A DNA stretch of 27,430 nt from a virus: the IMG/VR virus record IMGVR_UViG_3300048554_000033, positions 1 to 27,430 of that record; one strand, given 5' to 3'. A program made the position numbers and the translations under genes. Shown in pieces: positions 1-27,264 of the stretch (the stretch's first letter is position 1; every line of letters begins with the position of its first letter). The notes below the pieces were generated by a model that ran no database searches, was not told the DNA's origin, and saw nothing but the letters and a program-made list of their open reading frames with translations.

Positions 1-1736
1 AGAGTAGAAAGTACATCACCATTTTCATCTTTATAATTTCTTGTAGCTGCCTCTAGTCTTGCGGCTAGATTAACAGCATCCCCAATTACTGAATAATCAA
101 ATCTTGTATCACTACCCATATTACCTACGATACATGTTCCTGTATTAACACCAGAACCTATATTGATGTCGGGCAGTCCTCTTTCTTTGAAATCTTGTTT
201 TAATCTTTTTGTTTCTTCAGCACATTCGACAGCAGTTTTTACTGCCATCTCAGCGTGGTCTTCACAATCAAGTGGTGCATTCCAAAATGCCATAATACAA
301 TCGCCCATATACTTATCAACTGTACCACCATTTTCTAGTACAATTTTTGTCATGCGATTAAGATAGTCGTTGATAACTTCAACAAGTCCTTCAGGGTCAT
401 CATTGTTTTTGTAGTGTTCTGATATCGGAGTAAATCCTACTATGTCCATAAAAAGAAAACTCATTTCTCTCCTTTCACCACCTAATTTTAATTTACTAGG
501 GTCTTTTTGTAATTCTGCAACTTGTCTTGGGTCTAGATATGTTTCAAATTGTTTTCTTATTTGTTGTTTTAATCTAAACTCTAATATAAATCTATTGAAT
601 ATACTATGCATACCCACAATAGTAATTACAATAATTATCCAACTTACATCCGATAATATTAAGTATTTATCAAATAAGAATTTTGAACCAAAAACACTTG
701 CACTATATAAAAATACTAGACTTAAACCTACAAACCAATAGGGTGTAAATCTACATATTAGTATAACAGTAAGTCCTAATATAACAGATAAAACTAATTC
801 TAAAAATGAACTTATATCATATCTGTTTATTTGTTTGCCATCTATCATAGTTTGTAATGTAGAAGCAGATAACATGTAATCATATTTTTCACCAACAGGT
901 GTTGCAATGATACTGTTTAATCCTTCTGCTGTTGTTCCTATGATTACAGTACGACCATTAAATTTTGAAAAGTCATCTTCTGAAGCTGATATAGTTTCAA
1001 ATGATTTATTCCATCTCAACCATATTCTAGCATTAGGGTCTGTTTCTATAATTGGAAAACCTGGTACTCTTACTGCTTGAACACCACCATCTCCTGCTTT
1101 AACTTGATAACTAGGATTGCCTGTTGCAACTCTGATAACTTCTAAACCAATTGTTGGATATGTTGCCTCACCTATTCTCATTATCAATGGTATTCTTCTT
1201 ACGACACCATCTATTTCTGGTGCTGTGTTTATAACACCTACACCATCAGCACTACTTCCTAACTCAGGTATTGGTCCTAACATACCTTCCCATTCAAACA
1301 GATAAGGTAATGGGTTGCCTATTTTTGCAACACCTCTTGGCACGGCATTTTTGTTTGTTTGTGATGTACCTGTTTGTGCAATGACTACACCATTATTAGT
1401 CAATACTCTTGCAAAAAATTCATCTGTACCAAATCTATCTTCTTCTGAAAATAATATAGGTAAAACAATTACACCAGCACCAGCTTGTCTTAGTTTAAGA
1501 ACTATCTCTGCTATTTTATCTCTTGACCACGGCCATTGTCCATACTTCTCTATAGACTTTTCATCTATTGTAACAATACCAATGTCTGTTGATAAACTTA
1601 TTTCTTCTTGTTGTATCAACATATCAAAAGATTTTAATTTTAATATTTCTTTGACAAATGGTTCTTGTAAACCATAGAATGTTAATGCAACTAAAGTTAC
1701 AAATGCGAATGTCCAATGTGTTATAAATTTCTTCAT
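1..1736 (-). CDS. CHASE2-domain class III adenylate cyclase, 3' end cut by window edge
   Basis: Membrane-bound cyclase predicted to make cAMP in the cytoplasm in response to an extracytoplasmic signal. I translated 578 codons. There is an N-terminal membrane anchor (about residues 5-22), then a CHASE2-like periplasmic sensor (about 35-300, with IVTIDEKS and YGQWPWSR), three closely spaced membrane helices (about 310-385) and the catalytic domain. Catalytic residues are present: metal-binding D431 (FMDIVGFT) and D479 (KYMGD), and transition-state N556 and R560 (GDAVNLAARLE). K475 plus a Ser before VIGD suggest ATP specificity, class IIIb. The frame is open at base 1, so only the last part of the catalytic domain is missing. 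The start overlaps the stop of the curlin-repeat gene as TAATG, making it the last visible gene of the curli operon. CHASE2 cyclases and FecR-domain proteins are often neighbours in bacteria. A cyclase in a phage is unusual. Confidence 0.9.
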   Translation of the reverse strand, partial: MKKFITHWTFAFVTLVALTFYGLQEPFVKEILKLKSFDMLIQQEEISLSTDIGIVTIDEKSIEKYGQWPWSRDKIAEIVLKLRQAGAGVIVLPILFSEEDRFGTDEFFARVLTNNGVVIAQTGTSQTNKNAVPRGVAKIGNPLPYLFEWEGMLGPIPELGSSADGVGVINTAPEIDGVVRRIPLIMRIGEATYPTIGLEVIRVATGNPSYQVKAGDGGVQAVRVPGFPIIETDPNARIWLRWNKSFETISASEDDFSKFNGRTVIIGTTAEGLNSIIATPVGEKYDYMLSASTLQTMIDGKQINRYDISSFLELVLSVILGLTVILICRFTPYWFVGLSLVFLYSASVFGSKFLFDKYLILSDVSWIIIVITIVGMHSIFNRFILEFRLKQQIRKQFETYLDPRQVAELQKDPSKLKLGGERREMSFLFMDIVGFTPISEHYKNNDDPEGLVEVINDYLNRMTKIVLENGGTVDKYMGDCIMAFWNAPLDCEDHAEMAVKTAVECAEETKRLKQDFKERGLPDINIGSGVNTGTCIVGNMGSDTRFDYSVIGDAVNLAARLEAATRNYKDENGDVLST

Positions 1737-3133
1737 TAGTTTTGTGTTACTGTTGCTGAACAACTTGCACTATTACAATTTTGTTCAAGGTAATAATTTT
1801 GGTCTGTTGAACTATCCTGTGTCAAAGTAACACTAGAACTATTACCACTTAAATTTATTGTTGCATTATGATTACCACTTCCGTCTTGTGTTACATCTAC
1901 ACTATGACTATCAGTTAGTGTGATATCTAAAAAGTGATTACCTGTACCTTTTTGGTCTACGGCAACATTATTAGAACTATCTATGTCTAACCACAATTTT
2001 TTATCTCCTGTTTCTGTCTGGTCTACATCAACATTATTATTACTACCAACTATCTTAACATTCATATAGTGTTCGCCTACATAATTAATTGCTGATTGGT
2101 CTAAGTCTACATTATTTGTTGAACCCAATATATCTAATATTGCTCTTTGGTCTTGATTTTGTGTAACTGCAACATTGTTTGATGAACCTATTATATCTAG
2201 ACCCAAAATATTATCATTACCTATTTGGTCTAAATCTAAAGCATTATTATCACCAGTTATTACAGCTGTTGAAGTTAAATCTGAACCTATAATTAAATTA
2301 TCATCACCATCTTGTAATATATTTAAAGTGTTATTATTTCCTGTTTGTGTAATGTATAACTGATTACCACTTATAGATTTATTTCTAGCTGCATTAAACT
2401 CTGTTGTTTGATTTGAAGTTATACCAGATTGTACTGTTGATGTGTATAATCCTTCTTCTTCCATTATTTTAAGTAAAAGGGCATCCATGTTAGCTGCATA
2501 TGTGTGAGTTGAAAGAAACTGACCATAGCCAAATGTTACATAAACTGAACCACCATTTGAACCATAATCCCATTTGTGTATAATAGAAATATTATTATTA
2601 GAAGATGAGTTAGCGGCTACAGTTGTACCGTTAGTTACATAATACATATATTTGTCTGAACCTGGTAAAGTATTTTCATTATTAGTGCTACTTGCATAAT
2701 CACCTTTTCTTACTGAATAATAACAAGCATTACATCCACCACCCTGTGTAAAACTACCCACACTCATCTTACTTTCAATTAATTGTTCTATGTTACTATT
2801 TCTGTTGGTTGCACCATTACTACCTACTATAAGCAATTCACCGCCACCAGATACATAATTGTCATAAACTGTCTTACAGTTACTACCACAGTTTGAAGAA
2901 CCTGTGATATCAATGACTAAATCTTTGCCTGATACATCAGTAGAACTAACTGTACCACTTGTACTACTAGATACAGTATAACCTAAATCTTCTAATTCAG
3001 ATTTTAAATTTGTGTATTGAGAACTAGTATTATAATCTCCACTATTTTTATAATATATAAAGGCAGTATCAGCCAATACAGAGGTACTAAAAAATAATAG
3101 ACTACTGACCAGACTGAATAATTGTAATCGCAT
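1736..3133 (-). CDS. Secreted protein: N-terminal alpha/beta domain plus C-terminal curlin-type repeats
   Basis: A 465-residue protein with a clear signal peptide (about residues 1-21, ending SVLA before DTAF). Residues 22-230 look like an alpha/beta fold (GKDLVIDITG, GGGELLIVGSNG, GGSVYVTFGYG); I do not recognise the family and see no catalytic motif. Residues about 250-465 carry Asn/Gln/Gly repeats of the curlin kind, such as ITQTGNNNTLNILQDGDDN, and the protein ends in TVTQN. Curlin repeats (QxGxxN) form stacked beta-arches that assemble into amyloid outside the cell. It is probably exported by Sec and then through the CsgG-like channel encoded upstream. The start overlaps the FecR gene by 32 bases but has a strong GGGGGAG ribosome site. 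Its job could be surface fibre subunit, fibre cap or adhesin. The repeats are certain; the function is inferred. Confidence 0.8.
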   Translation of the reverse strand: MRLQLFSLVSSLLFFSTSVLADTAFIYYKNSGDYNTSSQYTNLKSELEDLGYTVSSSTSGTVSSTDVSGKDLVIDITGSSNCGSNCKTVYDNYVSGGGELLIVGSNGATNRNSNIEQLIESKMSVGSFTQGGGCNACYYSVRKGDYASSTNNENTLPGSDKYMYYVTNGTTVAANSSSNNNISIIHKWDYGSNGGSVYVTFGYGQFLSTHTYAANMDALLLKIMEEEGLYTSTVQSGITSNQTTEFNAARNKSISGNQLYITQTGNNNTLNILQDGDDNLIIGSDLTSTAVITGDNNALDLDQIGNDNILGLDIIGSSNNVAVTQNQDQRAILDILGSTNNVDLDQSAINYVGEHYMNVKIVGSNNNVDVDQTETGDKKLWLDIDSSNNVAVDQKGTGNHFLDITLTDSHSVDVTQDGSGNHNATINLSGNSSSVTLTQDSSTDQNYYLEQNCNSASCSATVTQN

Positions 3134-4199
3134 TTTCTACTCCCCCTATTTCGTAATCTATTATTTCATAATCACCTTGTACAACATTTAAAACATAATT
3201 ATATTCTTTATCTAATCTTAATTCAATATAATTTCCAGAGGCGTCTTCTCTACTCCATAACCAATTTGGGTCTTCATCTAATAAAGTGATACCTGTTTCA
3301 GGGTCTTTACCTAATCTTATACCATCTCGACCTTTGTCAAATTCATTTCTCATTGACTTTGCTAATTCAGCATTAATTTGGTCTAATATGTTTACTAAGA
3401 AATTTTGTTCTAAGAAATCTATGTCTAATCCTGTTGCCCAATTTTCAGTTTCTTCTTCTAGATAATCCACTTCCAAATCATCAAATTCTAAAAAATCAAT
3501 ATCTAGTGCGTTGGCAACTTTTATAAAATCCTCTTTACTTTGTTGCTCTTCTATCTCTCTTGGTTTTGATATGATTAATAAGTTACCTATTAAGTTTTCA
3601 TCTATATCTAGAATGACTGGTTTCATAGGATTACTTGCAACTGTTTCTACAACTGTGGCTTGAAATGCCTGATTTAAAATTACTTGACCAGCATCCGATG
3701 TTACATCTATTTCTCCTACATAACAATTACCATTTGTATCACATGAAGGTAATAATATAATTGTAGAACTTCCGACTTCATCTATTGTCATTGTAAAGTC
3801 TGTTCCACGAACACCGATTGTTGCTGTTGGTGTTTTTATCTTTACATTTTGTTTTGAGTTTTTTGCAATTTGACCTGAAGCATACCTAACAGTACCTAAG
3901 GATGCCTTTAATGATAAGGCACCTGTTTTTGAATTTGGGTCATAAACAAATTCATCTATTATTAGTTTAGAATGTTCTGTTACATCTACTCTAGTATCAT
4001 CAATAAACTCAATGGCAGTTTTACCTTTTCCGGTTCTAACGGTGTCGTAAGAAAAAATATCTAAATCTTTTTCAGACTTAAACTCATCTCCTTCTTTTCT
4101 TTCAACGACACCATTACCTTCTTGTAAAATGACATCTCCGATACTTGCACCAAAAGTGTTAGTGCTAAACAACAACATCATAATAAAAAACTTTTTCAT
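3102..4199 (-). CDS. FecR-domain secreted protein in the curli operon
   Basis: A 365-residue protein with a signal peptide (about residues 1-18, ending NTFGA). Residues about 45-140 match a FecR domain: YDTVRTGKGKTAIEF, then a beta-rich stretch with LGTVRYASG and ending KTPTATIGVRGTDF, a hallmark of FecR proteins. In bacteria such domains act in the periplasm as sensors or regulators, often next to CHASE2 or adenylate cyclase genes. The C-terminal half is acidic and unfamiliar, and its last residues (NAITIIQSGQ) look like a single curlin repeat. The start lies one base after the stop of the upstream curlin gene, so translation is probably coupled. It may link secretion of the curlin proteins to the CHASE2 cyclase two genes downstream; that is inference. 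Confidence 0.85.
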   Translation of the reverse strand: MKKFFIMMLLFSTNTFGASIGDVILQEGNGVVERKEGDEFKSEKDLDIFSYDTVRTGKGKTAIEFIDDTRVDVTEHSKLIIDEFVYDPNSKTGALSLKASLGTVRYASGQIAKNSKQNVKIKTPTATIGVRGTDFTMTIDEVGSSTIILLPSCDTNGNCYVGEIDVTSDAGQVILNQAFQATVVETVASNPMKPVILDIDENLIGNLLIISKPREIEEQQSKEDFIKVANALDIDFLEFDDLEVDYLEEETENWATGLDIDFLEQNFLVNILDQINAELAKSMRNEFDKGRDGIRLGKDPETGITLLDEDPNWLWSREDASGNYIELRLDKEYNYVLNVVQGDYEIIDYEIGGVENAITIIQSGQ

Positions 4200-4200
4200 T

Positions 4201-4884
4201 TTAATCTCGTTGTATTATATCTATATCGTGATTATCTCCAGATGTTGTTAGTGTAATCATGTTATCATAGATACCACTTTGAGTTATATCTACATCTGCG
4301 ATAGAACCTGTGTGTGTATGAATGTAAGTATGTCCTGCACTATCACCATTACCATCTATATCAACTAAGAAGTTATTTGTATCTCCATTAACTGATAATG
4401 TTAGTATTGCTGAGTTACCATCTATTGTACCTAAGATTGTGTTACTATCACTACCACTTGCACCAGTAATTCCAACTGTTGCTGAAGTAGCAGATGATGT
4501 TTCCCCAATGTCTATGTCAATATCGTTAGATGAACCTACCCAAACAATAGAAGCTGTTGCTGTACCACAAGAACTATTATTTCCTGCACTATCACAATTA
4601 AAGTCTATATTGTTACTATCACCTGTTACAGAAAATGTGCCTGTATAGGTTGCACCATTGACATCAAAGGTCATAACATTACTATCACCTATTTGTGTAA
4701 TTGCCAAATTTGTTGTTGCACCAATAACACTAGAGGCTGTAGTCGCATTACCTACTGTGTTATTCTGACCATCTTGTGTTACATCTAAATCTAATGTAGC
4801 ACCAGATTGGTTTATATAAATGTCATTTGCATGTACTGATAACGAAATAAAAATCACAGATAATATAGTGATTATTTTTTTCAT
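4201..4884 (-). CDS. Curlin-repeat (CsgA/CsgB-like) secreted subunit
   Basis: A 227-residue protein from the ATG at 4884. I prefer this start to the ATG at 4899 because it overlaps the csgG stop as ATGA and has GGAG nine bases upstream. A signal peptide covers about residues 1-20 (ending SVHA). The mature part is rich in Asn, Asp, Ser, Thr and Gly with periodic repeats such as INQSGATLDLDVTQDGQNN, ITQIGDSN, VTGDSNNIDFN and VNGDTNN, ending DIDIIQRD. This is the QxGxxN pattern of curli subunits with Asp often in place of Gln. E. coli CsgA is about 150 residues, so this is longer and more degenerate. It is the most likely substrate of the CsgG channel encoded just upstream. Whether it forms amyloid cannot be told from sequence. 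Confidence 0.82.
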   Translation of the reverse strand: MKKIITILSVIFISLSVHANDIYINQSGATLDLDVTQDGQNNTVGNATTASSVIGATTNLAITQIGDSNVMTFDVNGATYTGTFSVTGDSNNIDFNCDSAGNNSSCGTATASIVWVGSSNDIDIDIGETSSATSATVGITGASGSDSNTILGTIDGNSAILTLSVNGDTNNFLVDIDGNGDSAGHTYIHTHTGSIADVDITQSGIYDNMITLTTSGDNHDIDIIQRD

Positions 4885-5696
4885 TCTTTTACTCTCCATT
4901 TTTTAAACTTCCAATAGTCTAACTGTTCGCCCTTTTCAACCATTTTTAAAACGCCATATTCTATGGCAGAACGAATAGCATAATCTGTTGGTTCATTAAT
5001 AGCTGCACCTGTTTCTATCTCTAATGCTTTAGTCCTCAAATCAAAGAATCTAAATACATCAGCACCAGTTTGATAACTTGCAATAGTTTTACTTGCTGAT
5101 ATTGTCATCAATACTTCTCCTGTCTGTACTGCTATTACTCTTAAAGCAACAGTTACTTGGTCTGTTCGATATTGTTTGGAAGCTCCAATACCGAATACTC
5201 TTGCACCTTCGCCACCACTTACGGTATTTGAATCGTAACTGACAACGCCCCCCTCTATAATAAGACCTGCAAATATTAGTGGTTTTAATACTGTACCTGC
5301 ATCTTTTTCACCATCATATAATTCTCTTGTAGACCTAACCAATTGTCTTTCTTTGACTAGGTTATTTAATCCTTTTCTTTCTACTACTGTAAACCAATCA
5401 CCACCACTTACCATTTTAAGTGCTTGTATTAAGTACACTTCAGGTCCTTGTGTAACTGCCGTACTTAATTGAGAAAACTTATCACTAGGTTTTCTTTGTC
5501 CTGTTCTATCAGGAAAATCATAAATCGCAATCGTAATCTTATCTTGGTCTAAATCAGGTACACCTTTTAATAAATCCGATGTAGCAGGATTTTGTATAAA
5601 TGGCTTCTGAGACATCTCAACATAATTGCCCATTGTTGTCGAACAACCTGACAGGCACATGCCCATTAAAAATATTAATACATAAGTCCAGCTCAT
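4881..5696 (-). CDS. csgG: CsgG-family curli secretion lipoprotein
   Basis: Outer-membrane secretion channel of the curli (type VIII) pathway. The product has 271 residues, close to E. coli CsgG (277). A lipoprotein signal ends in the lipobox L15-S16-G17-C18. Family landmarks are present in order: IAIYDFPDRTGQ, WFTVVERKGLNNLVKERQ, FAGLIIEGGVVSYDSNT, TDQVTVALRVIAVQTGEVL, and a C-terminal segment with ETGAAINEPTDYAIRSAIE. Nine copies of such a protein form a ring with a narrow pore that passes unfolded curlin subunits. It lies between csgF and a curlin-repeat gene, the expected neighbourhood. AGGA precedes the start. No csgE, csgC or csgD is visible. CsgG in a T4-like phage is unusual, and the intact motifs suggest it is functional. 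Confidence 0.93.
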   Translation of the reverse strand: MSWTYVLIFLMGMCLSGCSTTMGNYVEMSQKPFIQNPATSDLLKGVPDLDQDKITIAIYDFPDRTGQRKPSDKFSQLSTAVTQGPEVYLIQALKMVSGGDWFTVVERKGLNNLVKERQLVRSTRELYDGEKDAGTVLKPLIFAGLIIEGGVVSYDSNTVSGGEGARVFGIGASKQYRTDQVTVALRVIAVQTGEVLMTISASKTIASYQTGADVFRFFDLRTKALEIETGAAINEPTDYAIRSAIEYGVLKMVEKGEQLDYWKFKKWRVKE

Positions 5697-5704
5697 AGTT
5701 TATC

Positions 5705-6187
5705 CTAAAAAATAAAATCTCCAACTGGTACAGTCAATGATGATACTGTTCCTGTTGGGTCAGTTATTGTCAATGTTATTATATCTGTTGAGGTATCTTT
5801 TACCCAATAAATTTGAGAACCTTCTACTTCTGCCGTTCCACTTGTTGCACAATTTTCTGTACAACTCGTTCCAAACATATTATCAACTAATTGTTTTGAT
5901 AAGTTAGCATAGATACGACTTTCTACATTGGCAATAAATTTATTGATTGTTTTGTTTTTTTCATCTCTTTCTGCTTGAGATAAAGCAGACTTCTCATCTT
6001 TAATTCTGTCATTTTCTCTAGTGTATTGTAGCTGCTCTATTGATAAGGCATGCTGGGAATAACCCTCTTTACTAAAAGCAGGGTTACCAAACTTGTGGGT
6101 AAGTTCACTTGCTGTGCTAGTATGAATCAAACAAGTGCATAATAGAAAGGATACTAACACTATTTTGTTTAAATCTAGTGTTTTCAT
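5705..6187 (-). CDS. csgF: CsgF-like curli assembly factor
   Basis: A 160-residue secreted protein with a signal peptide (about residues 1-26, ending TSTA before SEL). Three blocks match the CsgF layout: LTHKFGNPAFS resembles the mature CsgF N-terminus that plugs into the CsgG channel; FIANVESRIYANLSKQL resembles the central helix; and the end, TLTITDPTGTVSSLTVPVG, resembles the final beta-hairpin. In E. coli CsgF caps CsgG and couples secretion to fibre nucleation. Here it is the first gene of the cluster, eight bases ahead of csgG, and a T4 late promoter box ends six bases before its ATG. Because the match is by motif order rather than high identity, I am surer of the family than of detailed function. 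Confidence 0.8.
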   Translation of the reverse strand: MKTLDLNKIVLVSFLLCTCLIHTSTASELTHKFGNPAFSKEGYSQHALSIEQLQYTRENDRIKDEKSALSQAERDEKNKTINKFIANVESRIYANLSKQLVDNMFGTSCTENCATSGTAEVEGSQIYWVKDTSTDIITLTITDPTGTVSSLTVPVGDFIF

Positions 6188-17155: not shown

Positions 17156-17832
17156 CTTCTTTTAATCTTTAATTGTCTATCTATCCATTGTTTTGCAAGA
17201 TAATTATGTGGTTGATTCATAGTTCTTCTAACTATACTTGCACATTTATTTAGTGTTAATGTTACTAATTCCTTTTCACTTTGACTGTTGTCTATAATAT
17301 GAAAGTTTGCTGGTTGAAATAGTTTTTGAAGTCTTCCCATATTTCCTTGAACAGTATTCCAATTTGTTTTAACTATATTTTGTGGTACACTTCTATCTCT
17401 TTTTTCATTTCTTTCTAATGCGACATCTAAACTTGTATTAACAAATAACATGGTAGTTTGATATCCTAAAATTTTTAAAAATCTTTGTTGTCTAGATATT
17501 GTAGCAAAGTCTCTAGCAGTACCATCTATTATTAAACCAAGTCTACCTGCAATGTATAAATCCATTCTTGACGCTGTATTTATTTTTGCCTTCTGTCTGA
17601 TTTCATCTCTTTTTTCTTTTTCTTTCTCAGGCATTTTCATAGACAATCCTTCATCTTTTAAATACTTTTCAAATATACTATCTGAGTTTACAAGTTTTAA
17701 ACCTAAACCTGCAAATGCAGCCTTTGTTACAAATGTTTTACCAGAACCTGGTCCACCTGCAAGAAAGTATGCCTTAAATATACCAGGGTCATAAACTCCT
17801 TCTGTTATTAAAAATGTTTTATAGTCTTTCAT
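17152..17832 (-). CDS. P-loop kinase (zeta-toxin/polynucleotide-kinase-like) with targeting-like leader
   Basis: A 226-residue protein. Its leader MKDYKTFLITE has IxE at residues 9-11 immediately before the enzyme domain. A Walker A motif follows (FLAGGPGSGKTF, K32), then VNSDSIFEKYL (Asp as in zeta-type kinases), LIIDGTARDF, TTMLFVNTSLDVALERN and the arginine-rich RNEKRDRSVP. This order matches zeta-toxin/AAA-33-type small-molecule kinases, which phosphorylate nucleotides, nucleic acid ends or sugars. It sits between adenylate kinase and a nucleotidyltransferase polyprotein, with overlaps of 14 and 4 bases. Substrate unknown. Confidence 0.82.
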   Translation of the reverse strand: MKDYKTFLITEGVYDPGIFKAYFLAGGPGSGKTFVTKAAFAGLGLKLVNSDSIFEKYLKDEGLSMKMPEKEKEKRDEIRQKAKINTASRMDLYIAGRLGLIIDGTARDFATISRQQRFLKILGYQTTMLFVNTSLDVALERNEKRDRSVPQNIVKTNWNTVQGNMGRLQKLFQPANFHIIDNSQSEKELVTLTLNKCASIVRRTMNQPHNYLAKQWIDRQLKIKRR

Positions 17833-18418
17833 TTATCTTACTTATTATTTCTGCGGCTATGTCTTCTATAACTTCACCACCTTTTGCTTTGATAGTTATA
17901 AGTTTGTCTTTATAATAATCTACAACAGGTTGTGTTTGTTTTTTATAAACTTTAATTCTATTTTTTATAATGTCTGGTTTATCATCTGCACGACCTCTAG
18001 ACATTAATCTTCTAATGACTTCTTCTTCTGCAACATCTAGATATACAACATGGTCATAACCGATATTTCTTTTTTCCATTTCTTTAACTTGTTCCATACT
18101 TCTAGGAAAACCATCTAATACATATCCTTTTTCTGTATCTTTTCTTTGTAATCTGGCCTGTAGTGTATCTAATACAATTTTTGTATCTACATAATCACCT
18201 TTTTCTAATGCACTTCTTACTTTACGGCCTGTTGGTGTATCTTGTTTTGCTAAATCTCTCATCATATCACCTGTATACACATGAGGTATTTGATATTCTT
18301 TTGTTAAGAATTTAGAGTAAGTAGATTTACCAGAACCAGGTCCACCTAACATAATAATTCTCATAGGCATTGTTGCCTCTTTTAGTTTTGCAAAAATATA
18401 TTGTTTAAATGATTTCAT
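17819..18418 (-). CDS. adk: Adenylate kinase with N-terminal capsid-targeting-like leader
   Basis: A 199-residue enzyme catalysing ATP + AMP to 2 ADP. The core starts at MPMRIIMLGGPGSGKST (Walker A), followed by VYTGDMMRDLA (AMP-site), GYVLDGFPRSMEQ, DHVVYLDV, RLMSRGRADDKPD and IKVYKKQTQPVVDYY, all in adenylate kinase order with the short lid. Normal enzymes begin almost at the P-loop strand; here 15 extra residues (MKSFKQYIFAKLKEA) precede it, ending in an LKE site. Removing them would restore a standard N-terminus. Its start overlaps the upstream structural gene and its end overlaps the next kinase by 14 bases. Packaging in the head is inferred. Confidence 0.9.
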   Translation of the reverse strand: MKSFKQYIFAKLKEATMPMRIIMLGGPGSGKSTYSKFLTKEYQIPHVYTGDMMRDLAKQDTPTGRKVRSALEKGDYVDTKIVLDTLQARLQRKDTEKGYVLDGFPRSMEQVKEMEKRNIGYDHVVYLDVAEEEVIRRLMSRGRADDKPDIIKNRIKVYKKQTQPVVDYYKDKLITIKAKGGEVIEDIAAEIISKINERL

Positions 18419-19149: not shown

Positions 19150-20361
19150 TTATCCCCACTCCTTATCCATCGTGAAGTTTGCACGACTAAATTCTAATCT
19201 ATCTACAAGTTTAACTGCACCGGCGCTTCTATCTACTGCGACAAAACCTTCAGGTGATGTTACTCTATATCCGTTTGGTGTTTTTAGGAAGTGTCCTATA
19301 CTTTGTATTTGTGATAGTTTACTTACTAAGAAATTCTTTGCATTTGCCAAACTGACATGACTTGCAATTGCCATGTATAATGCACTTTGATTTTTGTCTA
19401 TAAATTTTAAATTATCTTTTTTCGCCTGTATAAATTTTTGTTTACCTGCTGTTGTCTTTCTAGCAGATATTTCTGCATTAATAAAACTTTCGTAATACTC
19501 TCTAAATTGTCCTTGTAATGTTTTAACTTTACCCATACCACCTGTACTGTTTCTAATTACAGAATTGAAAAATGTTTTTAATCTATATCCTACTGATGTT
19601 GGGTCTCTACTGTCCATTTGATTTAACATAGGACCTGCTTTTGATAATGAACCTTTTGCCATTCTAATTAATGAATCAAATCTTGATAATTCTGTTGATG
19701 TAAATTTAGATGAACCGGAAGTATCTCGGTATCCTGCTGAGGCAAGATAAACATTTCTGCCACCCCCACCCGTAACTGTTCCGAATCCTGCTCGTAAATC
19801 TTGCATTGTTTTGCCTGAATATTTTGTATGAAAGACTATACCTAATTTTGCACTTGCAATTTTTCTACCCACATTTGAGTTTACAGGCATTGCATATGTA
19901 ATTGTGTTAGGTGTAAATGTAATCATAGATTCGCCATCTATATCTGTTTTCTTTTTATCACCCGATGTAAATAATAAATCGCCTTGATAAACACCATTAG
20001 TAACAATTCTACGGAGATAAGTTAAACATGCTGATAGTTTTTCTGCAACAACACCTGAATGATTTCTTCTGATGTCTGCACTTGTATAATTAATCTTAGG
20101 TACTTTATTAAATACTGACTTAGTACCTACAAAGAATCTGCCGTTCTCTGGATTTATACCACAGATAATCGCTGGGGCACCATCCCACTTAACAGTCATA
20201 TTGACTTTTTTACTTGACCTACCAGCTAGCATGTTGCGAATTGCAACCAAGAAGTTTACAGCATTTTGACCACCCTTTGAACCTTCATCTATAATCTGGT
20301 CCTCTAGATGTTCTAAGTGCTTATTCTTGGCCTTAGTCTGATATCCTTTAAAACTAAACAT
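19150..20361 (-). CDS. Nucleotidyltransferase/ligase-fold protein with KWDG motif
   Basis: A 403-residue protein. MFSFKGYQ at the start and IIDE at residues 23-26 resemble the targeting leaders and cleavage sites of neighbouring genes. The core has VKWDGAPAIICG, where K58-W-D-G61 matches motif I (KxDG) of the covalent nucleotidyltransferases that include DNA and RNA ligases. Later blocks (GVYQGDLLF, GIVFHTKYSG) resemble motifs III and IV. I recall related proteins (DUF6267-type) in T4-like marine phage structural regions. Ligase or adenylation activity is inferred from motif order only; no known accessory domain is seen. A late promoter lies 65 bases upstream and GGGAG precedes the ATG. Confidence 0.7.
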   Translation of the reverse strand: MFSFKGYQTKAKNKHLEHLEDQIIDEGSKGGQNAVNFLVAIRNMLAGRSSKKVNMTVKWDGAPAIICGINPENGRFFVGTKSVFNKVPKINYTSADIRRNHSGVVAEKLSACLTYLRRIVTNGVYQGDLLFTSGDKKKTDIDGESMITFTPNTITYAMPVNSNVGRKIASAKLGIVFHTKYSGKTMQDLRAGFGTVTGGGGRNVYLASAGYRDTSGSSKFTSTELSRFDSLIRMAKGSLSKAGPMLNQMDSRDPTSVGYRLKTFFNSVIRNSTGGMGKVKTLQGQFREYYESFINAEISARKTTAGKQKFIQAKKDNLKFIDKNQSALYMAIASHVSLANAKNFLVSKLSQIQSIGHFLKTPNGYRVTSPEGFVAVDRSAGAVKLVDRLEFSRANFTMDKEWG

Positions 20362-20466: not shown

Positions 20467-21756
20467 TTAGTTATCCCATTTGTCTTTTTGGGTCTCCATT
20501 TCTTCAACAATAAGAGTTATATCTTTGTATATACTTTCATCGGTAGCATTATCAAATATGTTTGATAATATCTCTCTATTATTAGTATCATACTTTTTCC
20601 AATCTTTTTGATATGATTCTGATGGATGATGAATTACAACATGGTAAGTATCAATCTTTTTGCCAGATTCGATTAGTTCTTTAATCTTTACTAGTCCATG
20701 TGTTATCAAATCATTTTTACCACTAGAAAATTGTTTAGCGTAAATATTAGGTTCTAAATTAAGAGTATCAATTTTAGTCTGTAATTGTTTCTTATAACCT
20801 GCCCCTTGCCAATTAATCCAGTTCTTATCTTCACCTGTCATATCTGAAACTAATTGTTTAACTTTATTAATTTCTTTTTGAGTTAAATGATTTTCTTTAA
20901 AAACAAATTGTACAGATTCACTATTGTAAGATAAACCTTTTTCTATCTCTTTATAAACGCCTTGTGCAATTGTTGTTAAATTAGTTTGTTTTTTTGGTGT
21001 TTTTTCTCTAGGGTTTAGATATCTACCAAGCCACTCAATTTCTTCATCATTCCAATCTTTATGAATGTGTTCTGGTATAATTAATGTTCTAATAGATGTT
21101 GCATTAGACATTTTAAATGCATTGTTAGAATGATTTCCGTTTACACCTAAATTCACAAGTTTACCATCTACTTCCCTATTTTCTAAAATAGTACATAGCA
21201 ATTCTTCTGTTGCATATTTACCAAAAGATTCATTTATTTTATCTTTCAATTTTTTCTCATGAACATCATCTGTGGTTTCATCTCTTACTTGTAACCATCT
21301 TGTATTATTCATGTAGTTTTTATCTTTTAGTTCTTGTGAACATCCTGTGAAATTACATGTTTTAGTAATTGTATCAGCAATATCTTTTATTAATGGATGT
21401 CTTACAATTTCAATAAATTGATTAAACCCATTTGATTTATTGTAATACTTATCATTATCTTTAGCATTTACTTTTGTTAGTTCGTTATATTCATATTGTT
21501 GGCAAAATTTATAACCTGCCCACATTATAACTTTATAAGTCCACTTAATATTATCATCATGCAAGTCTTGTAAAAATTGTTTATCTTCTGATGAAGTGAT
21601 GTAATCGGTACCAGCCTCAGATGATTTTTTTATACCTAGATATTTTTTGCCATTTTCACGATTTGTCCATTCATAAACGAATGCCTCAGCATTGTCCTGA
21701 TTTGCCGGAATCTCTGTCATGATTCTGTCATTTGTTGATTCTTGCCATTTACTCAT
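20467..21756 (-). CDS. GIY-YIG-like endonuclease, probably homing type
   Basis: A 429-residue protein. Residues about 25-110 fit the degenerate GIY-YIG layout seen in phage homing endonucleases: FVYEWTNRENGKKYLGIKKS, then DYITSSEDKQF, WTYKVIMW, and QYEYNELTKVNAKDN with a conserved-type Glu and the following YYNKSNG. The rest (about 120-429) is charged and mainly helical with a short Cys pair (CNFTGC) and unknown DNA-binding content. Unlike its neighbours it has a perfect sigma70-type promoter and a CAGGAGA ribosome site, so it is probably expressed early. It stands alone between a terminator-like hairpin and a late promoter. The assignment rests on motif pattern; the C-terminal region is unrecognised. 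Confidence 0.6.
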   Translation of the reverse strand: MSKWQESTNDRIMTEIPANQDNAEAFVYEWTNRENGKKYLGIKKSSEAGTDYITSSEDKQFLQDLHDDNIKWTYKVIMWAGYKFCQQYEYNELTKVNAKDNDKYYNKSNGFNQFIEIVRHPLIKDIADTITKTCNFTGCSQELKDKNYMNNTRWLQVRDETTDDVHEKKLKDKINESFGKYATEELLCTILENREVDGKLVNLGVNGNHSNNAFKMSNATSIRTLIIPEHIHKDWNDEEIEWLGRYLNPREKTPKKQTNLTTIAQGVYKEIEKGLSYNSESVQFVFKENHLTQKEINKVKQLVSDMTGEDKNWINWQGAGYKKQLQTKIDTLNLEPNIYAKQFSSGKNDLITHGLVKIKELIESGKKIDTYHVVIHHPSESYQKDWKKYDTNNREILSNIFDNATDESIYKDITLIVEEMETQKDKWDN

Positions 21757-21792: not shown

Positions 21793-21821
21793 ATTATAGG
21801 ACATTTTACGGTATTTGTCAA
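21793..21821 (-). promoter_or_regulatory. Consensus sigma70-type promoter for the endonuclease gene
   Basis: Minus strand TTGACA (21816-21821), 17-base spacer, TATAAT (21793-21798), a perfect match to consensus. An A-run upstream (AAAAAAAGC) could act as an UP element. Confidence 0.88.
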
Positions 21822-21905: not shown

Positions 21906-21928
21906 CTAAAATATGGGGGTTTTAAGTA

Positions 21929-21956
21929 GGAGAGGCCCTTGTCGGCAGACCTCTCC
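21929..21956 (-). terminator. GC-rich hairpin downstream of alkB, likely terminator
   Basis: GGAGAGG and CCTCTCC form a perfect 7-bp stem, extendable by wobble pairs, with a loop of about 14 bases. It starts 18 bases after the alkB stop. It is strikingly GC-rich for this DNA. T-runs are short on both sides (TACTTAAAA on the minus strand), so strength is uncertain. Confidence 0.6.
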
Positions 21957-21973
21957 CTAGTTTTAAAAACTAT

Positions 21974-23203
21974 TTATTTTTTTGCAGAACGAAGACCTAA
22001 GTCTACATTTCCAGCGTCTTGTAATACATCTCCAACAAAAGGTGTTCCTTCATAACCTACTTCTTTGTTGATTCTGTTTGCAATTGCTTTTTCTTCATCA
22101 GTCGCAAAGTGTTCATCCCATGCAGCCAATCTTTTTCTCATATACCAATGCCAAATTGGTGGTACTAATGCGATAAAGAATACCACAAAGTAGCCCCAGC
22201 CTGTATTTGGACATCCGACATTTTCGAGTTCCCAGAAATGAGTTTCTCCTCTGTCATGATGGTCAGCCTGTCTGCCGATTTCAATAAAGAACCAAGCAGT
22301 GAAAGCTGTTGAGTTATCCCAATTGTGTCTGTAATCAATTGGTTGGTCTTTTACACGGATTAGACCATAATGCTCTAGATAGTTAAGTGCTTCTAGCTCG
22401 AAGTTTGAGATTCCCCAAATTGTTGCTAGTACTGCCATACCTATCCAACCACCAGCTGCAAAGAATAATGCTACTGTTGGTACTGCCATTAGATATCCTC
22501 TTATCCAACGGTTTTGCCAAGAAATGAATGATACACCCATTCTTGATAGTCTTTCTTTTTCCATGTTGAAAAGAAATTTTGATTGACCTAGGTATGAAAG
22601 TGGATAATGACCATAGATTGTTCTACCACGAGGTGCAGTAGCTGGGTCATCTTCACTTGCAAGTTCTAGATGATGGTTGTACACATGAGCGTAACAGAAA
22701 TGTGCTGAACCAGATAGTGCCATCATTAATCTAGAGATTACGAATCCAAATCCTTTTGTGTGAGATAGTTCGTGACCATAGATGATTCCGATACCAATAA
22801 AGATACCAGAAGATAATGTAGCGCCGATTAGGTTAACTGCTGTTATACCTTCGTGCATTACTAATATTCCAGGAATGAGTTCCATGATTACTGCACCTTC
22901 AGCTCCACCTAGTGCCATGAATGTATAAAGTCTCCATGCCATTACTAGTTGAAACAAAACGAATACAGGTAACATGAAATACATTGTTAGGTTTTGAAAA
23001 GTTGGCCAACCTAAAGATTCGCCGTTTTCATCATAACCTACACCTGTTGTTTCAAATTTTGTAGCGATATCTACAAGCAGACCTACGAATAGCAATGCTA
23101 CTCCTAACCAAGCCATGATACCACCCAAAAGAACGCCAGCACCAGCTACGATTATAAGAATCGGCGCTAATAGATAGCGTGCATTAAGTAAGATTTGTCC
23201 CAT
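21974..23203 (-). CDS. alkB: Alkane 1-monooxygenase-like membrane di-iron hydroxylase (AlkB/XylM family)
   Basis: A 409-residue integral membrane enzyme. The family hydroxylates terminal carbons of alkanes or alkyl side chains using O2 and electrons from rubredoxin. I choose the ATG at 23203 because AGGAGG lies nine bases upstream; an in-frame ATG at 23257 would overlap the promoter region. About six membrane helices are visible. Histidine boxes: H144-E-L-S-H148, H173-V-Y-N-H177-H178 and D314-H315-H316. The AlkB hallmark NYLEHYG is at 274-280. Box 1 reads HELSHT where many AlkBs have HELxHK, and box 3 lacks the usual LQRHS, so it is a divergent member. It has its own sigma70 promoter and downstream hairpin. 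Sampled lines look higher in GC (roughly 32-40%) than flanking genes, suggesting acquisition. Rubredoxin and reductase are not in the window and would have to come from the host. Confidence 0.9.
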   Translation of the reverse strand: MGQILLNARYLLAPILIIVAGAGVLLGGIMAWLGVALLFVGLLVDIATKFETTGVGYDENGESLGWPTFQNLTMYFMLPVFVLFQLVMAWRLYTFMALGGAEGAVIMELIPGILVMHEGITAVNLIGATLSSGIFIGIGIIYGHELSHTKGFGFVISRLMMALSGSAHFCYAHVYNHHLELASEDDPATAPRGRTIYGHYPLSYLGQSKFLFNMEKERLSRMGVSFISWQNRWIRGYLMAVPTVALFFAAGGWIGMAVLATIWGISNFELEALNYLEHYGLIRVKDQPIDYRHNWDNSTAFTAWFFIEIGRQADHHDRGETHFWELENVGCPNTGWGYFVVFFIALVPPIWHWYMRKRLAAWDEHFATDEEKAIANRINKEVGYEGTPFVGDVLQDAGNVDLGLRSAKK

Positions 23204-23238
23204 TTGATTTTTCCTCCTATCAAATGTTATATACTTGG

Positions 23239-23267
23239 AGTATATCGTAAGGAACAACTAAAGTCAA
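23239..23267 (-). promoter_or_regulatory. Sigma70-type promoter for alkB
   Basis: Minus strand TTGACT (23262-23267), 17-base spacer, TATACT (23239-23244). Predicted start near 23232 leaves a leader of about 29 bases containing AGGAGG. The remaining gap to 23392 shows no gene. Confidence 0.8.
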
Positions 23268-23392
23268 GCGTGAGTTGAATTTAACTGAGGGACGATTTAC
23301 ATACCTTTCCAAGTAACTGTTATTATTTAGTAGTTTGGTAACTTGTGTATTGAATTATTTTCTGTGTTTCACTTTATAATAATATACTAATG

Positions 23393-24571
23393 TTATTTTG
23401 CAATTACAAACTGTCCTGATAGAGGTGTTCTTGATGTAATATATTCATACATCAATCTAATAAACTTATCCTTTTTTGTTCCTGATTTGAAAAACTTTTT
23501 TAAGTCTGGCATTATTTCATTAATAATATAAATGGCACTTATAGCGCCTCTTTCAAAATCAAATCTTTTTTTATCTTTTCTTAGATACTCAATTTTTTCT
23601 AATGCCTTAAAATACTTTTCCTCACCTGCTTTATATTTTCTTAAAGTAGAGTTGGCTAACCCTTTATCAATAAATGCTAGTAATTCACAGAATACTTTTA
23701 TAGAACCTATTGAACCACCTCTTGCCTCTGCCTTACTAAAAATTGCCTCTGCAACAAATCTTTTTGCTGAAGGGTCATGTCTTAATTTTATTTCACCACC
23801 AGATTCTAACATTATTCTCATATCTCTAGTTTCTGCTTTTTGGCCATACTTTACTTTTTTATATTTTTTCCAGTCTGTTACATTTTTTACTTTTACTTTA
23901 TTGATAACTTTTATTTCTTCTTTTCTATCAAAGTTTACTAACTGTAATATGGGTTCTGTTTTCGTTACCTTTTTTAATGACAATGGTAATAAATCTCCAC
24001 TATCAATTAAATTAGATACTAAAGAATTTAAACTAGGAAAGTCATAATAATTTTCATTTTGTGCTTTGATTAAATTCTGTCTTATAGTTTGTTTTGCTTT
24101 ATTACTTCCTAAATAGATATCTGCCGGTGACCATTTATTTACATTACCAAATTTTGCTTGTGATGTATATTTTTGTTTGTTGGCATATTTAAATAGGTTT
24201 TCTATATTACCCATTATTTCATCATCGCCTCTAAAATAAAATAATTTTTGAAAACCTGCAGCCTCTATCTTTAAATCTTTATCAATATCTCCTATATCAT
24301 TAACTAATTTTTTTGCAATTTTTACTGAAGATATATACCAAGAATTATCCTCTGTTAAAAATGTTTCTATCATATCACCAGATACACCAGGTGTAACTAT
24401 TCTTTGTAGTGATTTATTAATTTGATTTTGACCTACTTTTGCTCTGAAATCAGCATACTCTGGATAAAGTTTTTCATCAAATATTTGATTTGATTTTGTC
24501 TTACCCAATAAATCTGCTATTGCACATAGTAATGCTTGAGCGCTTTCTGCTAATGCTGTTTTGTCTGCCAT
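23393..24571 (-). CDS. Conserved viral protein of unknown function, late-promoted
   Basis: A 392-residue soluble protein. NVNKWSPADIYLGS (about residues 143-156) is a signature I recall from large marine virus proteins of unknown role. It is followed by FPSLNSLVSNLIDSGDLLPLSLKK and a basic central part (WKKYKKVKYGQK, GGEIKLRHDPSAKRF). No catalytic motif or membrane segment is evident. The start is set by a late promoter ending six bases upstream of the ATG, inside the stop region of helicase 41. Thus it is timed differently from the replication genes before it. No clear terminator follows. Confidence 0.78.
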   Translation of the reverse strand: MADKTALAESAQALLCAIADLLGKTKSNQIFDEKLYPEYADFRAKVGQNQINKSLQRIVTPGVSGDMIETFLTEDNSWYISSVKIAKKLVNDIGDIDKDLKIEAAGFQKLFYFRGDDEIMGNIENLFKYANKQKYTSQAKFGNVNKWSPADIYLGSNKAKQTIRQNLIKAQNENYYDFPSLNSLVSNLIDSGDLLPLSLKKVTKTEPILQLVNFDRKEEIKVINKVKVKNVTDWKKYKKVKYGQKAETRDMRIMLESGGEIKLRHDPSAKRFVAEAIFSKAEARGGSIGSIKVFCELLAFIDKGLANSTLRKYKAGEEKYFKALEKIEYLRKDKKRFDFERGAISAIYIINEIMPDLKKFFKSGTKKDKFIRLMYEYITSRTPLSGQFVIAK

Positions 24572-24577
24572 ACATAC

Positions 24578-24585
24578 TATTTATA
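24578..24585 (-). promoter_or_regulatory. T4-type late promoter overlapping the helicase stop codon
   Basis: Minus strand TATAAATA, exact, containing the TAA of the helicase gene. The expected start site is at or one base before the ATG at 24571, giving an almost leaderless message. Confidence 0.78.
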
Positions 24586-25957
24586 ACTGAAAATCAGAGA
24601 ATTTGTCGTATGCTACATCTGGTGTTATTTGTTCTTCTTCTTCAGTCTGATTACTATCAACAATGTTCTGAGCAGAAGCTTCTACATCAAATAGTCTCAT
24701 TTTGGAACGGTCTACACCTATGATAAAAGAACGATTCATACTTGGGTCGCCGAATCTGTTCTTTAATTGTTTGACTTTTAATTGATTCAATTGTTCTAAC
24801 TCATCATTAGAGATTAGTGCAAACATAAAGTCTGCTGTTGCCGGCAAACCAAATGATTCTGCCGTATCTTCTAAACCGATATCTGTTGAAGTAAAACCAC
24901 TTCTTGTTGTTTGAGTAGCAGAGAAGATTGGTAAATCAAATTCAACTGCAAGACCACGAAGCTCTTCTGCAATTGCCTTGATGTAGAAATATGATGAGAT
25001 ATTTCCACCTTTGAACCTGCTACTCGCACATATATTGAGGTAATCTATAAAGACTACATCAGGTTTAAAAGTTTTCTTTAACGATAATTCATTTAGTAAT
25101 GCTCTGAAATGACCACTATGAGCAGAAGCAGTAGGATATTCTTTAATAATTAATTGACCTAATGTTTTATTTTGTAACTTCTTAACTTTGTTTTCATACA
25201 TGTCTTTTGGCATAACATGTAAATCATCTATAGTTACATCAAATAAATTAGCGTCTACTCTTTCTGCAATTCTTTCTTCTGCCATTTCAAGAGTAATGTA
25301 TAAAACATTTTTACCTTGTATCAACCAGTTTGAGGCTGCATGACACATGAATAATGATTTACCAACGCCGGTGCCTGCAAGTGCAATATTTAAAGTTTTA
25401 CTTGGGACACCGCCTTTGGTGATACGATTAAAATAGTTTAAATCAAACTTAAATCTTTTTTCTTTTTTATGATAAAAATCAAATCTAGATTGAGCATCCT
25501 CTATATAATCATGCCCAACATGATTGTCAAAAGATACTGCAAGTGCCTCTGATAAAATTTGAGGTATCGCCTCTGGATTTTGTTTCTTATCTTTACCATC
25601 TAGAATCTGAATACCTGATAAGACTGCATTATGTACTGCACGGTCTTTACAAAACTTTTCTGTTGTATCTAATAACCATTGTAATTCTACTTCTTCATTA
25701 TTTAAACCGTTTACAATAGTTTTAATTTCAGTTAATTCATCTTCTTTTAAATCTTTTCTTTTATTTAATTCTACAAGTATGGTTTCTTTTGTAGGTAAAT
25801 TTTTATATTTGTTTACAAATTCATTTACTTCACCAAATAATGTTGATTCACTATGATTAGAAAAAAATTCAGTTTTAATAAAAGGTAAAGCTTTTCTTGT
25901 AAAGTCTTCATTGTAAAATAAATTTCTTAATATTATTCTTTCTATTCTATCAGTCAT
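24581..25957 (-). CDS. 41: Replicative DNA helicase, gp41/DnaB family
   Basis: A 458-residue hexameric helicase that unwinds the fork and hosts the primase in T4-type replication. The N-terminal helical domain (about 1-160) is followed by a RecA-like motor: Walker A G195TGVGKS201 (H1), YITLEMAEERIAERVDANL (H1a), DVVFIDYLNI (Walker B, H2), and a later block with FSATQTTRSGF (H3) and DFMFALISND. A basic Arg segment near the end (LKNRFGDPSMNR) fits H4. Length matches T4 gp41 (475). Its neighbourhood beside uvsX is as in T4. The start overlaps the small upstream gene by eight bases. Confidence 0.93.
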   Translation of the reverse strand: MTDRIERIILRNLFYNEDFTRKALPFIKTEFFSNHSESTLFGEVNEFVNKYKNLPTKETILVELNKRKDLKEDELTEIKTIVNGLNNEEVELQWLLDTTEKFCKDRAVHNAVLSGIQILDGKDKKQNPEAIPQILSEALAVSFDNHVGHDYIEDAQSRFDFYHKKEKRFKFDLNYFNRITKGGVPSKTLNIALAGTGVGKSLFMCHAASNWLIQGKNVLYITLEMAEERIAERVDANLFDVTIDDLHVMPKDMYENKVKKLQNKTLGQLIIKEYPTASAHSGHFRALLNELSLKKTFKPDVVFIDYLNICASSRFKGGNISSYFYIKAIAEELRGLAVEFDLPIFSATQTTRSGFTSTDIGLEDTAESFGLPATADFMFALISNDELEQLNQLKVKQLKNRFGDPSMNRSFIIGVDRSKMRLFDVEASAQNIVDSNQTEEEEQITPDVAYDKFSDFQL

Positions 25958-26285
25958 TTATATCCTCAAATTTTAAATCTAATTTACCTGTTGCTAATTG
26001 TTCTTCTACTAAATCTATTAATATATCACCTATATGGTCGATAAACTCTTGTTCATCAATGTCTATATCTTTAGGATTTTTTAGAATATTATAATCGAAT
26101 ATTACTGAAAGTTTTTCTGAATCTTCTACTTCTTTGAATCCAACATTGCCATACTTGTAGATTATTTCTGCATACTTACCTTCAGTAAGTTTTATGCAAG
26201 TATAATCATCATCAGGTCTTTGTGCAAAGACATAAGGTTTAGTCTTCTTCTGTTCCGTAGGTGAATTTTCTTTTTGTGTACTCAT
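25950..26285 (-). CDS. Small acidic protein between uvsX and helicase
   Basis: A 111-residue protein from the ATG at 26285; a TTG one codon upstream is possible. It overlaps uvsX by 47 bases, unusually long here, and the helicase gene by eight. The N-terminus is Lys/Gln-rich, followed by [37 protein letters not shown] and an acidic helical end. T4 has gene 40 at this position, but I see no similarity. It is probably a replication or recombination accessory protein by context only. Confidence 0.7.
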
Positions 26286-27264
26286 CAATCTTCTCTAATA
26301 CTTCTTTTTTGAAATATTTTTCAGGTTCATTATTTATTGTTTTTGCATATTGTTTGTTGCCATCTGGTAATTCATATCTTGTTGATACTTTTTTAAACAA
26401 GCCACATTCTTCTGCTAATTCTAAAAGACCATAGTATTTGTCAAGACCCCTTTTGTATGTAAGTCTAACATCTACTTGTTCATTTTCTTTTGTAATTCTA
26501 GACTTGTAATTTTTACAACGAATTATATTACCGACAACTTCTGTTCCATCTTTTTCTTTTCTTTTACCAAGATATACAATACTTGAAGCTGCATATTTAA
26601 GACCAGAACCACCACCCATTTCTTTTTGTGGGAACATAGAACCAATCACATCATATGTATGATTAGTCATAATCATTGGTACATTTGCCTGACCTAGTTT
26701 TAAAGTTAAAACTCTAAATGCTGATTTGACAATTTGACTTCTAGTCATGTCTCTTGTTTCTTTACCTTCAGCAGTATCTTCCATTTCTTTTGTAGTAGAT
26801 AACATGCCTAAGGAATCAAGTACAAACATGATAGGTTTTCTTTTGTCTGATTCTTGTTCTAGATACTTGTCAATAATTTTTATTGATTGTGTTCTAAACT
26901 CTTGTACTGTTGCAACTGGTACAACAACAACTCTGTTTACATCTATGCCTCTTTGTTCTAGCATATCTTTAGATACTGCATTTTCTGATTCAAAATAAAT
27001 CACACCAGCATTCTTATCTTTATCTAGAAAACTTTTACATACACCCAATGCAAAGAAAGTTTTACCTGTAGCGGCCTCACCTGCAATTGCTGTTATACGA
27101 TTACCTGGTAGCCCACCGTAAATACTGCCTGACAATAAGGCGTTGAAAGCATATGAACCAGTGTCAATAAAGCTATCAACATCACCACCTGTAACACCGT
27201 CGGATGCTAAAGTAGCATATTCATTGCCTGTTTCTTTAATTATATCTTTTAAAAAATCACTCAT
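26239..27264 (-). CDS. uvsX: UvsX, RecA-like recombinase
   Basis: A 341-residue strand-exchange ATPase for phage recombination-dependent replication and repair. The core shows [20 protein letters not shown] with Walker A G62EAATGKT69, [11 protein letters not shown], the Walker B strand [12 protein letters not shown], and [31 protein letters not shown] (loop 2 region, quoted in part: [10 protein letters not shown]), then YLGKRK. T4 UvsX is 391 residues; this is shorter, as in marine relatives. A perfect sigma70 promoter and GAGG ribosome site precede it. Confidence 0.95.

Follow-up and report, generated by a model that had tools for sequence, protein, structure and literature searches.

Does a gene for an alkane hydroxylase-like protein belong to the genome of a marine phage, and if so, which compound would its product oxidize in the infected cell? 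We addressed these questions for the complete IMG/VR record IMGVR_UViG_3300048554_000033, which is classed as a linear fragment (27,430 bases; hereafter the window, meaning the whole stretch of DNA analyzed). A first-pass annotation, made from the sequence alone, had described an alkane hydroxylase gene of the AlkB/XylM type, flanked by phage genes on the same strand and equipped with its own promoter, ribosome site and downstream hairpin. The window is a marine T4-like virus of bacteria, a Kyanoviridae-type myovirus. The closest phage relatives of its backbone are OM43 phage Melnitz and SAR11 phage HTVC008M, both Kyanoviridae, with UvsX identities of 70% and 69%, respectively. The flanking genes proved to be phage genes as described, and UvsX, the DnaB-like helicase, the phrog_1462 gene and DUF6267 all lie on the minus strand, like the AlkB-like gene. 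The features of the locus are:

26239–27264, minus strand: phage UvsX recombinase, 70% identical to Melnitz phages
24581–25957, minus strand: phage DnaB-like replicative helicase (gp41 type)
23393–24571, minus strand: phage gene of the phrog_1462 family, upstream flank of the AlkB slot
23287–23296, minus strand: upstream block ATCGTCCCTC, a possible regulatory element, nearly invariant in 14 replication-slot loci and found at a single site in the window
23239–23267, minus strand: sigma70-type promoter TTGACT-17-TATACT within the conserved block TTGACWTT-N5-TTCCTTACGATAYAMT
23213–23218, minus strand: ribosome-binding site AGGAGG, invariant in 14 aligned replication-slot loci
21974–23203, minus strand: predicted AlkB-like membrane di-iron monooxygenase, 409 amino acids with an ATG start (from the reading frame, Pfam, nearest structures, motifs and model)
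21928–21957, minus strand: downstream hairpin with an 11-bp stem, a possible terminator or RNA stabilizer
20467–21756, minus strand: GIY-YIG-like gene (SegE-like, sub-threshold) adjoining the AlkB-like cargo, with its own consensus promoter at 21821–21793
19150–20361, minus strand: DUF6267 phage gene, downstream flank of the AlkB slot

In HTVC008M, the gene preceding DUF6267 overlaps the DUF6267 gene with no cargo between them, and so the AlkB-like and GIY-YIG-like genes of the window have been inserted into a conserved replication module. Unlike the window, neither HTVC008M nor Melnitz carries an AlkB-like gene in this slot. The promoter of the GIY-YIG-like gene is a perfect TTGACA-17-TATAAT, and this gene could help to move the AlkB cargo.

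The AlkB-like reading frame is intact. Its likely start is the ATG at 23203, just after the AGGAGG, giving 409 amino acids; an alternative TTG start at 23257 would give a 427-amino-acid version that overlaps the promoter. Both the promoter and the ribosome site named in the first reading are present. The promoter block occurs in 18 loci, all of them replication-slot phage loci, and in no host locus. Because the 4.2-kb stretch around the promoter holds 28 promoter-like sites against 21.4 expected, the match alone proves little, and it is the conservation that makes this promoter more than chance. AGGAGG or a close variant precedes most viral copies. The claimed downstream hairpin is present (−21.5 kcal/mol, z −2.7) and its structure is kept in relatives with different sequence, but in the window it has no U-run and was not called as a terminator. 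Upstream of the promoter, the interval 23204–23392 contains two more blocks, TACTAAATA and ATCGTCCCTC, that are conserved in the 14 aligned replication-slot loci.

A survey of viral contigs for the same locus, which had been proposed as a check, found 208 stretches in the viral collection, 198 of which encode relatives of the AlkB-like protein, and we fetched 80 viral loci for comparison. The relatives sit in independent T4-like contigs at two positions. Slot 1, the window type, lies in the replication module between the phrog_1462 gene and DUF6267; slot 2 comes immediately after the major head protein gene and precedes those for the tail tube and UvsY. Between close phage copies dN/dS is 0.03–0.12, which indicates strong purifying selection. 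Four loci of the viral collection (L070–L073) branch with cellular genes and are probably misfiled host fragments.

The main threat to a phage origin is that the contig is a host-phage chimera or an assembly artefact. The GC content of the gene exceeds that of its flanks (0.396 versus 0.318), as had been noticed at the outset, and the protein is 97.6% identical to the copy in a host metagenome-assembled genome (MAG). DNA identity to that copy is just 82%, however, with dS about 1.65, and the synonymous sites of the window gene are nearly saturated relative to host copies. In the DNA tree, 50 of the 51 phage copies of the 409-amino-acid type form one clade (support 100), inside which the two slots are mixed; in the protein tree, host and phage copies are intermixed. 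Given the occurrence of the gene in the same slot across many independent contigs, the presence at both slots, the purifying selection, the divergence from the host, the viral DNA clade and a phage-specific promoter that host loci lack, we rejected the chimera, which had been named as a possible refutation and to which we now give a negligible probability. The AlkB-like gene is real and phage-borne: it sits in genuine phage genomes, is related to host genes and is under selection. Since nearly all phage copies fall into one DNA clade, we do not claim repeated host-to-phage transfer. A capsid-slot phage copy (L038, 4720–5961) groups with host copies and is a possible fresh acquisition from a host.

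The 44-kb record of the window's sister phage, whose protein is 100% identical, contains slot 1 and slot 2, yet the AlkB-like gene occupies the replication slot only. We had considered that each phage might carry two copies, one per slot, and rejected this on the evidence of that record. The gene thus appears to have moved between slots. In place of AlkB, the capsid slot of the sister phage (L194/L195, record G410) has some four small genes that resemble 2OG-Fe(II) oxygenases by eye, and cargo seems to be exchangeable at both slots. Among isolated phages there were only two matching records, both labeled 'Acinetobacter phage MD-2021a'; their AlkB is of the cellular type, 33% identical and not a close relative. 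A literature search found no description of an AlkB-like auxiliary gene in phages; several of the papers that it returned do no more than refer to work on alkanes.

What kind of enzyme does the gene encode? The sole Pfam match is FA_desaturase (2.1e-28), and searches of PHROGs and NCBIfam returned no family. The nearest solved proteins in phmmer are AlkB itself, FtAlkB 8sbb (6e-29) and AlkB-AlkG 8f6t (4.5e-26). An AlphaFold2 model (pLDDT 77.7, pTM 0.82) aligned to the two structures over about 357 residues at 2.8–3.0 Å (VIA Z 37.9 and 34.8); for 8f6t the values were Z 37.9, 357 residues and 2.8 Å. Foldseek likewise matched the model to the AlkB fold (E 9.8e-13). The predicted fold is therefore that of AlkB. 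A Foldseek search of the viral proteins in BFVD found none matching the model fold at E ≤ 0.001.

All histidine boxes had been described as intact, but they are not. Box 1 (HELSH), box 2 (HVYNHH) and NYLEHYG are canonical, and the phage protein thus has the HExxH, HxxxHH and NYxEHYG motifs in common with AlkB, at about 25% identity. Box 3, however, reads RQADHH where AlkB has RHSDHH, with Gln in place of the first His. The form RQ[AGC]DHH occurs in 78 of 78 viral rows and in every cellular family row with a readable box, whereas the sampled AlkB and XylM proteins have His at this position. The family also has an extra His, H322 (GETHFWEL), that is nearly invariant and distinguishes it from AlkB. 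A QxxHH box is a working variant in front-end lipid desaturases, and the change therefore points to a separate subfamily rather than to an inactive protein. In a tree with seven AlkB/XylM references, few in number and on long branches, the family stands apart (SH-aLRT 97).

The QxxHH box and the Pfam match raise the possibility of a lipid-modifying enzyme, an acyl-chain hydroxylase or desaturase that would remodel the membrane of the infected cell. Against this, stearoyl-CoA desaturases match the model with a Z of only about 5, far below the 37.9 for AlkB. A true alkane hydroxylase, through which infected cells would oxidize n-alkanes with the help of host rubredoxin, would agree with the AlkB fold and the retained NYLEHYG, but not with the loss of the box 3 His or with the placement of the family apart from the AlkB and XylM references.

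Evidence on the substrate came from bacteria that carry the same gene. Among 84,980 species genomes scanned, 147 relatives turned up, and we fetched 80 of these loci. Where classified, nearly all are Gammaproteobacteria, many of them marine and from sulfur-oxidizing or methylotrophic groups (Thiothrix single-amplified genomes (SAGs), Porisulfidus, Thiodiazotropha, Thiogranum and Methylophaga sulfidovorans). The closest host clade has genomes of about 1 Mb, and three of its loci (L087, L090 and L091) lie on contigs of 240–820 kb. Based on Pfam annotation of representative neighbors, the host operon runs alkB-like – [globin] – 4Fe-4S ferredoxin – GST-like – Fer2/FAD/NAD reductase – small protein – FadL/TodX porin – SBP56 (mtoX) – SCO1/MauG, where the globin is a bacterial globin, the small protein has no Pfam match and SCO1/MauG is a fusion. 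SBP56, SCO1 and MauG together make up the published methanethiol oxidase locus (PMC5739008). The mtoX gene lies downstream in all six closest-clade host loci that reach far enough. Physical linkage is mainly a property of this clade; outside it, mtoX is in the genome but mostly beyond the fetched region, and in the Methylophaga genome G046 it is about 8 kb from the AlkB-like gene.

The link to SBP56/MtoX also extends to whole genomes. In a sample of 369 Gammaproteobacteria, 51 of which have an SBP56/MtoX-family gene, the gene is present in all 13 genomes with the subfamily (at least 57% identity) and in 38 of the 356 others (Fisher p 1.6e-12), a p-value that is only a guide because related genomes are not independent observations and PF05694 takes in SBP56 proteins other than methanethiol oxidases as well. 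Genomes with distant AlkBs only have SBP56 in 7 of 31 cases. Within Methylophaga, the AlkB-like gene occurs in 2 of 24 genomes and SBP56 in the same two (2/2 versus 0/22, p 0.0036).

These patterns weaken the alkane reading. Its genomic support is the FadL-type porin of the host operon and the rubredoxin genes found elsewhere in 19 of 24 host genomes, which make an AlkB-like electron path possible. The annotated cellular operon, however, contains no rubredoxin (and thus no counterpart of the AlkG partner of AlkB), no alcohol or aldehyde dehydrogenase and no acyl-CoA ligase, and has a Fer2/FAD/NAD reductase instead. The family is tied to mtoX, whereas distant AlkBs have a weak link. We therefore consider it quite unlikely that the phage enzyme is an alkane hydroxylase. 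The first-pass annotation was largely right in seeing an auxiliary gene of the phage that has an expression cassette of its own and a product with the AlkB fold, as the many viral loci, the conserved promoter and the model indicate. Its alkane reading is probably wrong, given the separate branching, the lost His, the operon with mtoX and a XylA-like reductase, and the co-occurrence with SBP56; judged from gene content and motifs, a phage-borne methyl-sulfide monooxygenase is the stronger hypothesis.

Published expression data point in the same direction. When M. thiooxydans grows on dimethylsulfide, a 'fatty acid desaturase' (MDMS009_226) is strongly induced, and so are both mtoX genes, an NAD(P)H flavin reductase and a porin for long-chain fatty acids (PMC6548844). 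According to the authors, the enzyme that opens dimethylsulfide degradation is missing, with a monooxygenase as one option, and they found mtoX in M. thiooxydans and M. sulfidovorans only, among six species (PMC6548844). This distribution fits the AlkB-like/SBP56 pattern that we found. From genome content we take G046 to be M. thiooxydans and infer that MDMS009_226, a cellular gene, is the AlkB-like gene, which would place it probably in the same subfamily; G046 has two PF00487 genes, and its AlkB-like copy is 90% identical to that of M. sulfidovorans. The same authors interpreted the induced 'desaturase' as membrane repair (PMC6548844), which favors the lipid-modifying enzyme considered above. 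The operon and genome partners, however, relate to methylated sulfur and not to lipids, and only 2 of 24 Methylophaga species have the gene, so that we regard lipid modification as improbable.

The host operon also resembles the xylene system of pWW0. There, the oxygenase gene xylM is followed by a Fer2-type reductase gene, with an outer membrane transport protein nearby, and the Fer2/FAD/NAD reductase of the host operon, which we saw in cellular loci only, resembles XylA. The enzyme could accordingly be a monooxygenase of the XylM or alkene type that oxidizes some other small, hydrophobic substrate, in which case the GST-like proteins would deal with a reactive epoxide; GST-like genes occur in 33 of the 80 cellular loci, often in several copies. 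The phage protein is 28% identical to XylM but lacks its NHxxHH (NHINHH) and FQHYG motifs, and the phage carries no reductase. The genome-wide SBP56/MtoX tie and the published induction by dimethylsulfide also speak against this possibility, which we rate as unlikely. The FadL porin and GST-like proteins are nevertheless compatible with larger hydrophobic or epoxide-forming substrates too.

Bacteria keep the same gene beside genes for methanethiol breakdown, so the virus probably aids its host in using methylated sulfur gases, which matter for climate, and not oil-like alkanes. Taking the conserved metal-binding motifs and gene neighborhoods together, we lean toward the phage gene being an auxiliary dimethylsulfide (methyl-sulfide) monooxygenase from an AlkB-like subfamily whose third box is QxxHH. 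In the proposed mechanism, electrons from NADH would pass through the XylA-like reductase, perhaps via a small ferredoxin, to the di-iron centre. The non-haem di-iron membrane enzyme would then hydroxylate a methyl C–H of dimethylsulfide, or of a methyl sulfide very similar to it, and the unstable hydroxymethyl sulfide product would break down to methanethiol and formaldehyde. MtoX would take the methanethiol, and enzymes for formaldehyde and formate (C1) would regain reducing power. The phage would supply the oxygenase only, from its own sigma70-type promoter, with reductase and ferredoxin provided by the host. In this way infected cells might sustain or even increase the flow through the first, oxygen-requiring step, to the presumed benefit of the phage.

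The proposed reaction, dimethylsulfide to methanethiol and formaldehyde, is the one carried out by DmoAB. DmoAB is a soluble flavin enzyme, whereas the phage protein is a predicted membrane di-iron protein. Virus-borne amoC and pmoC, which encode copper-enzyme subunits, likewise place one component of a membrane monooxygenase in a phage and leave the rest to the host, but those phages carry a subunit only and here the whole catalytic protein is present. The gene thus adds a complete catalytic monooxygenase, beyond single subunits, to the marine-virus genes that steer host metabolism. Of the biogenic sulfur gases that escape from the ocean, dimethylsulfide is the main one; if the proposal is true, viruses take a direct part in its removal there. 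The phage gene is also a concrete, testable candidate for the enzyme that starts dimethylsulfide breakdown in Methylophaga and its relatives. More broadly, we see an even balance for and against the family being an unrecognised class of membrane di-iron dimethylsulfide monooxygenases, the missing first enzyme in Methylophaga and marine sulfur-oxidizing Gammaproteobacteria, that widespread T4-like phages carry and express. No AlkB-like enzyme figures in a 2026 paper's overview of the enzymes acting on dimethylsulfide, which names Dso, Ddh, Tmm and DmoAB (PMC13310141).

The phage records tested contained no mtoX. A Fer2 ferredoxin was present in 1 of 12 phage records, which otherwise had no Fer2 ferredoxin or reductase. 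In the viral locus L004, whose AlkB-like protein is nearly identical to that of the window, a 2Fe-2S ferredoxin gene (1036–1296) lies upstream of the DNA polymerase gene and is a possible phage-encoded electron donor. Another viral contig with an AlkB-like gene (L080, 5626–7421) encodes uroporphyrinogen decarboxylase and porphobilinogen deaminase of the haem pathway, and in both L074 and L080 a ribose-phosphate pyrophosphokinase-type gene lies near the AlkB-like gene. The window itself has an adenylate kinase-like gene at 17819–18418 (PF00406, 6e-43) and, at 3–6187 on the minus strand, a curli-like module with CsgF (2.7e-14), CsgG (8e-49), a FecR domain protein and a CHASE2-cyclase. Studies of related phages describe CsgF and CsgG, but no curlin subunits (PMC7029224, PMC9004378). 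The module of the window does include candidate curlin subunits: a protein with a curlin repeat at 1736–3133 (PF07012, above the cut-off) and a second CsgB-like repeat protein at 4201–4899, a weak match.
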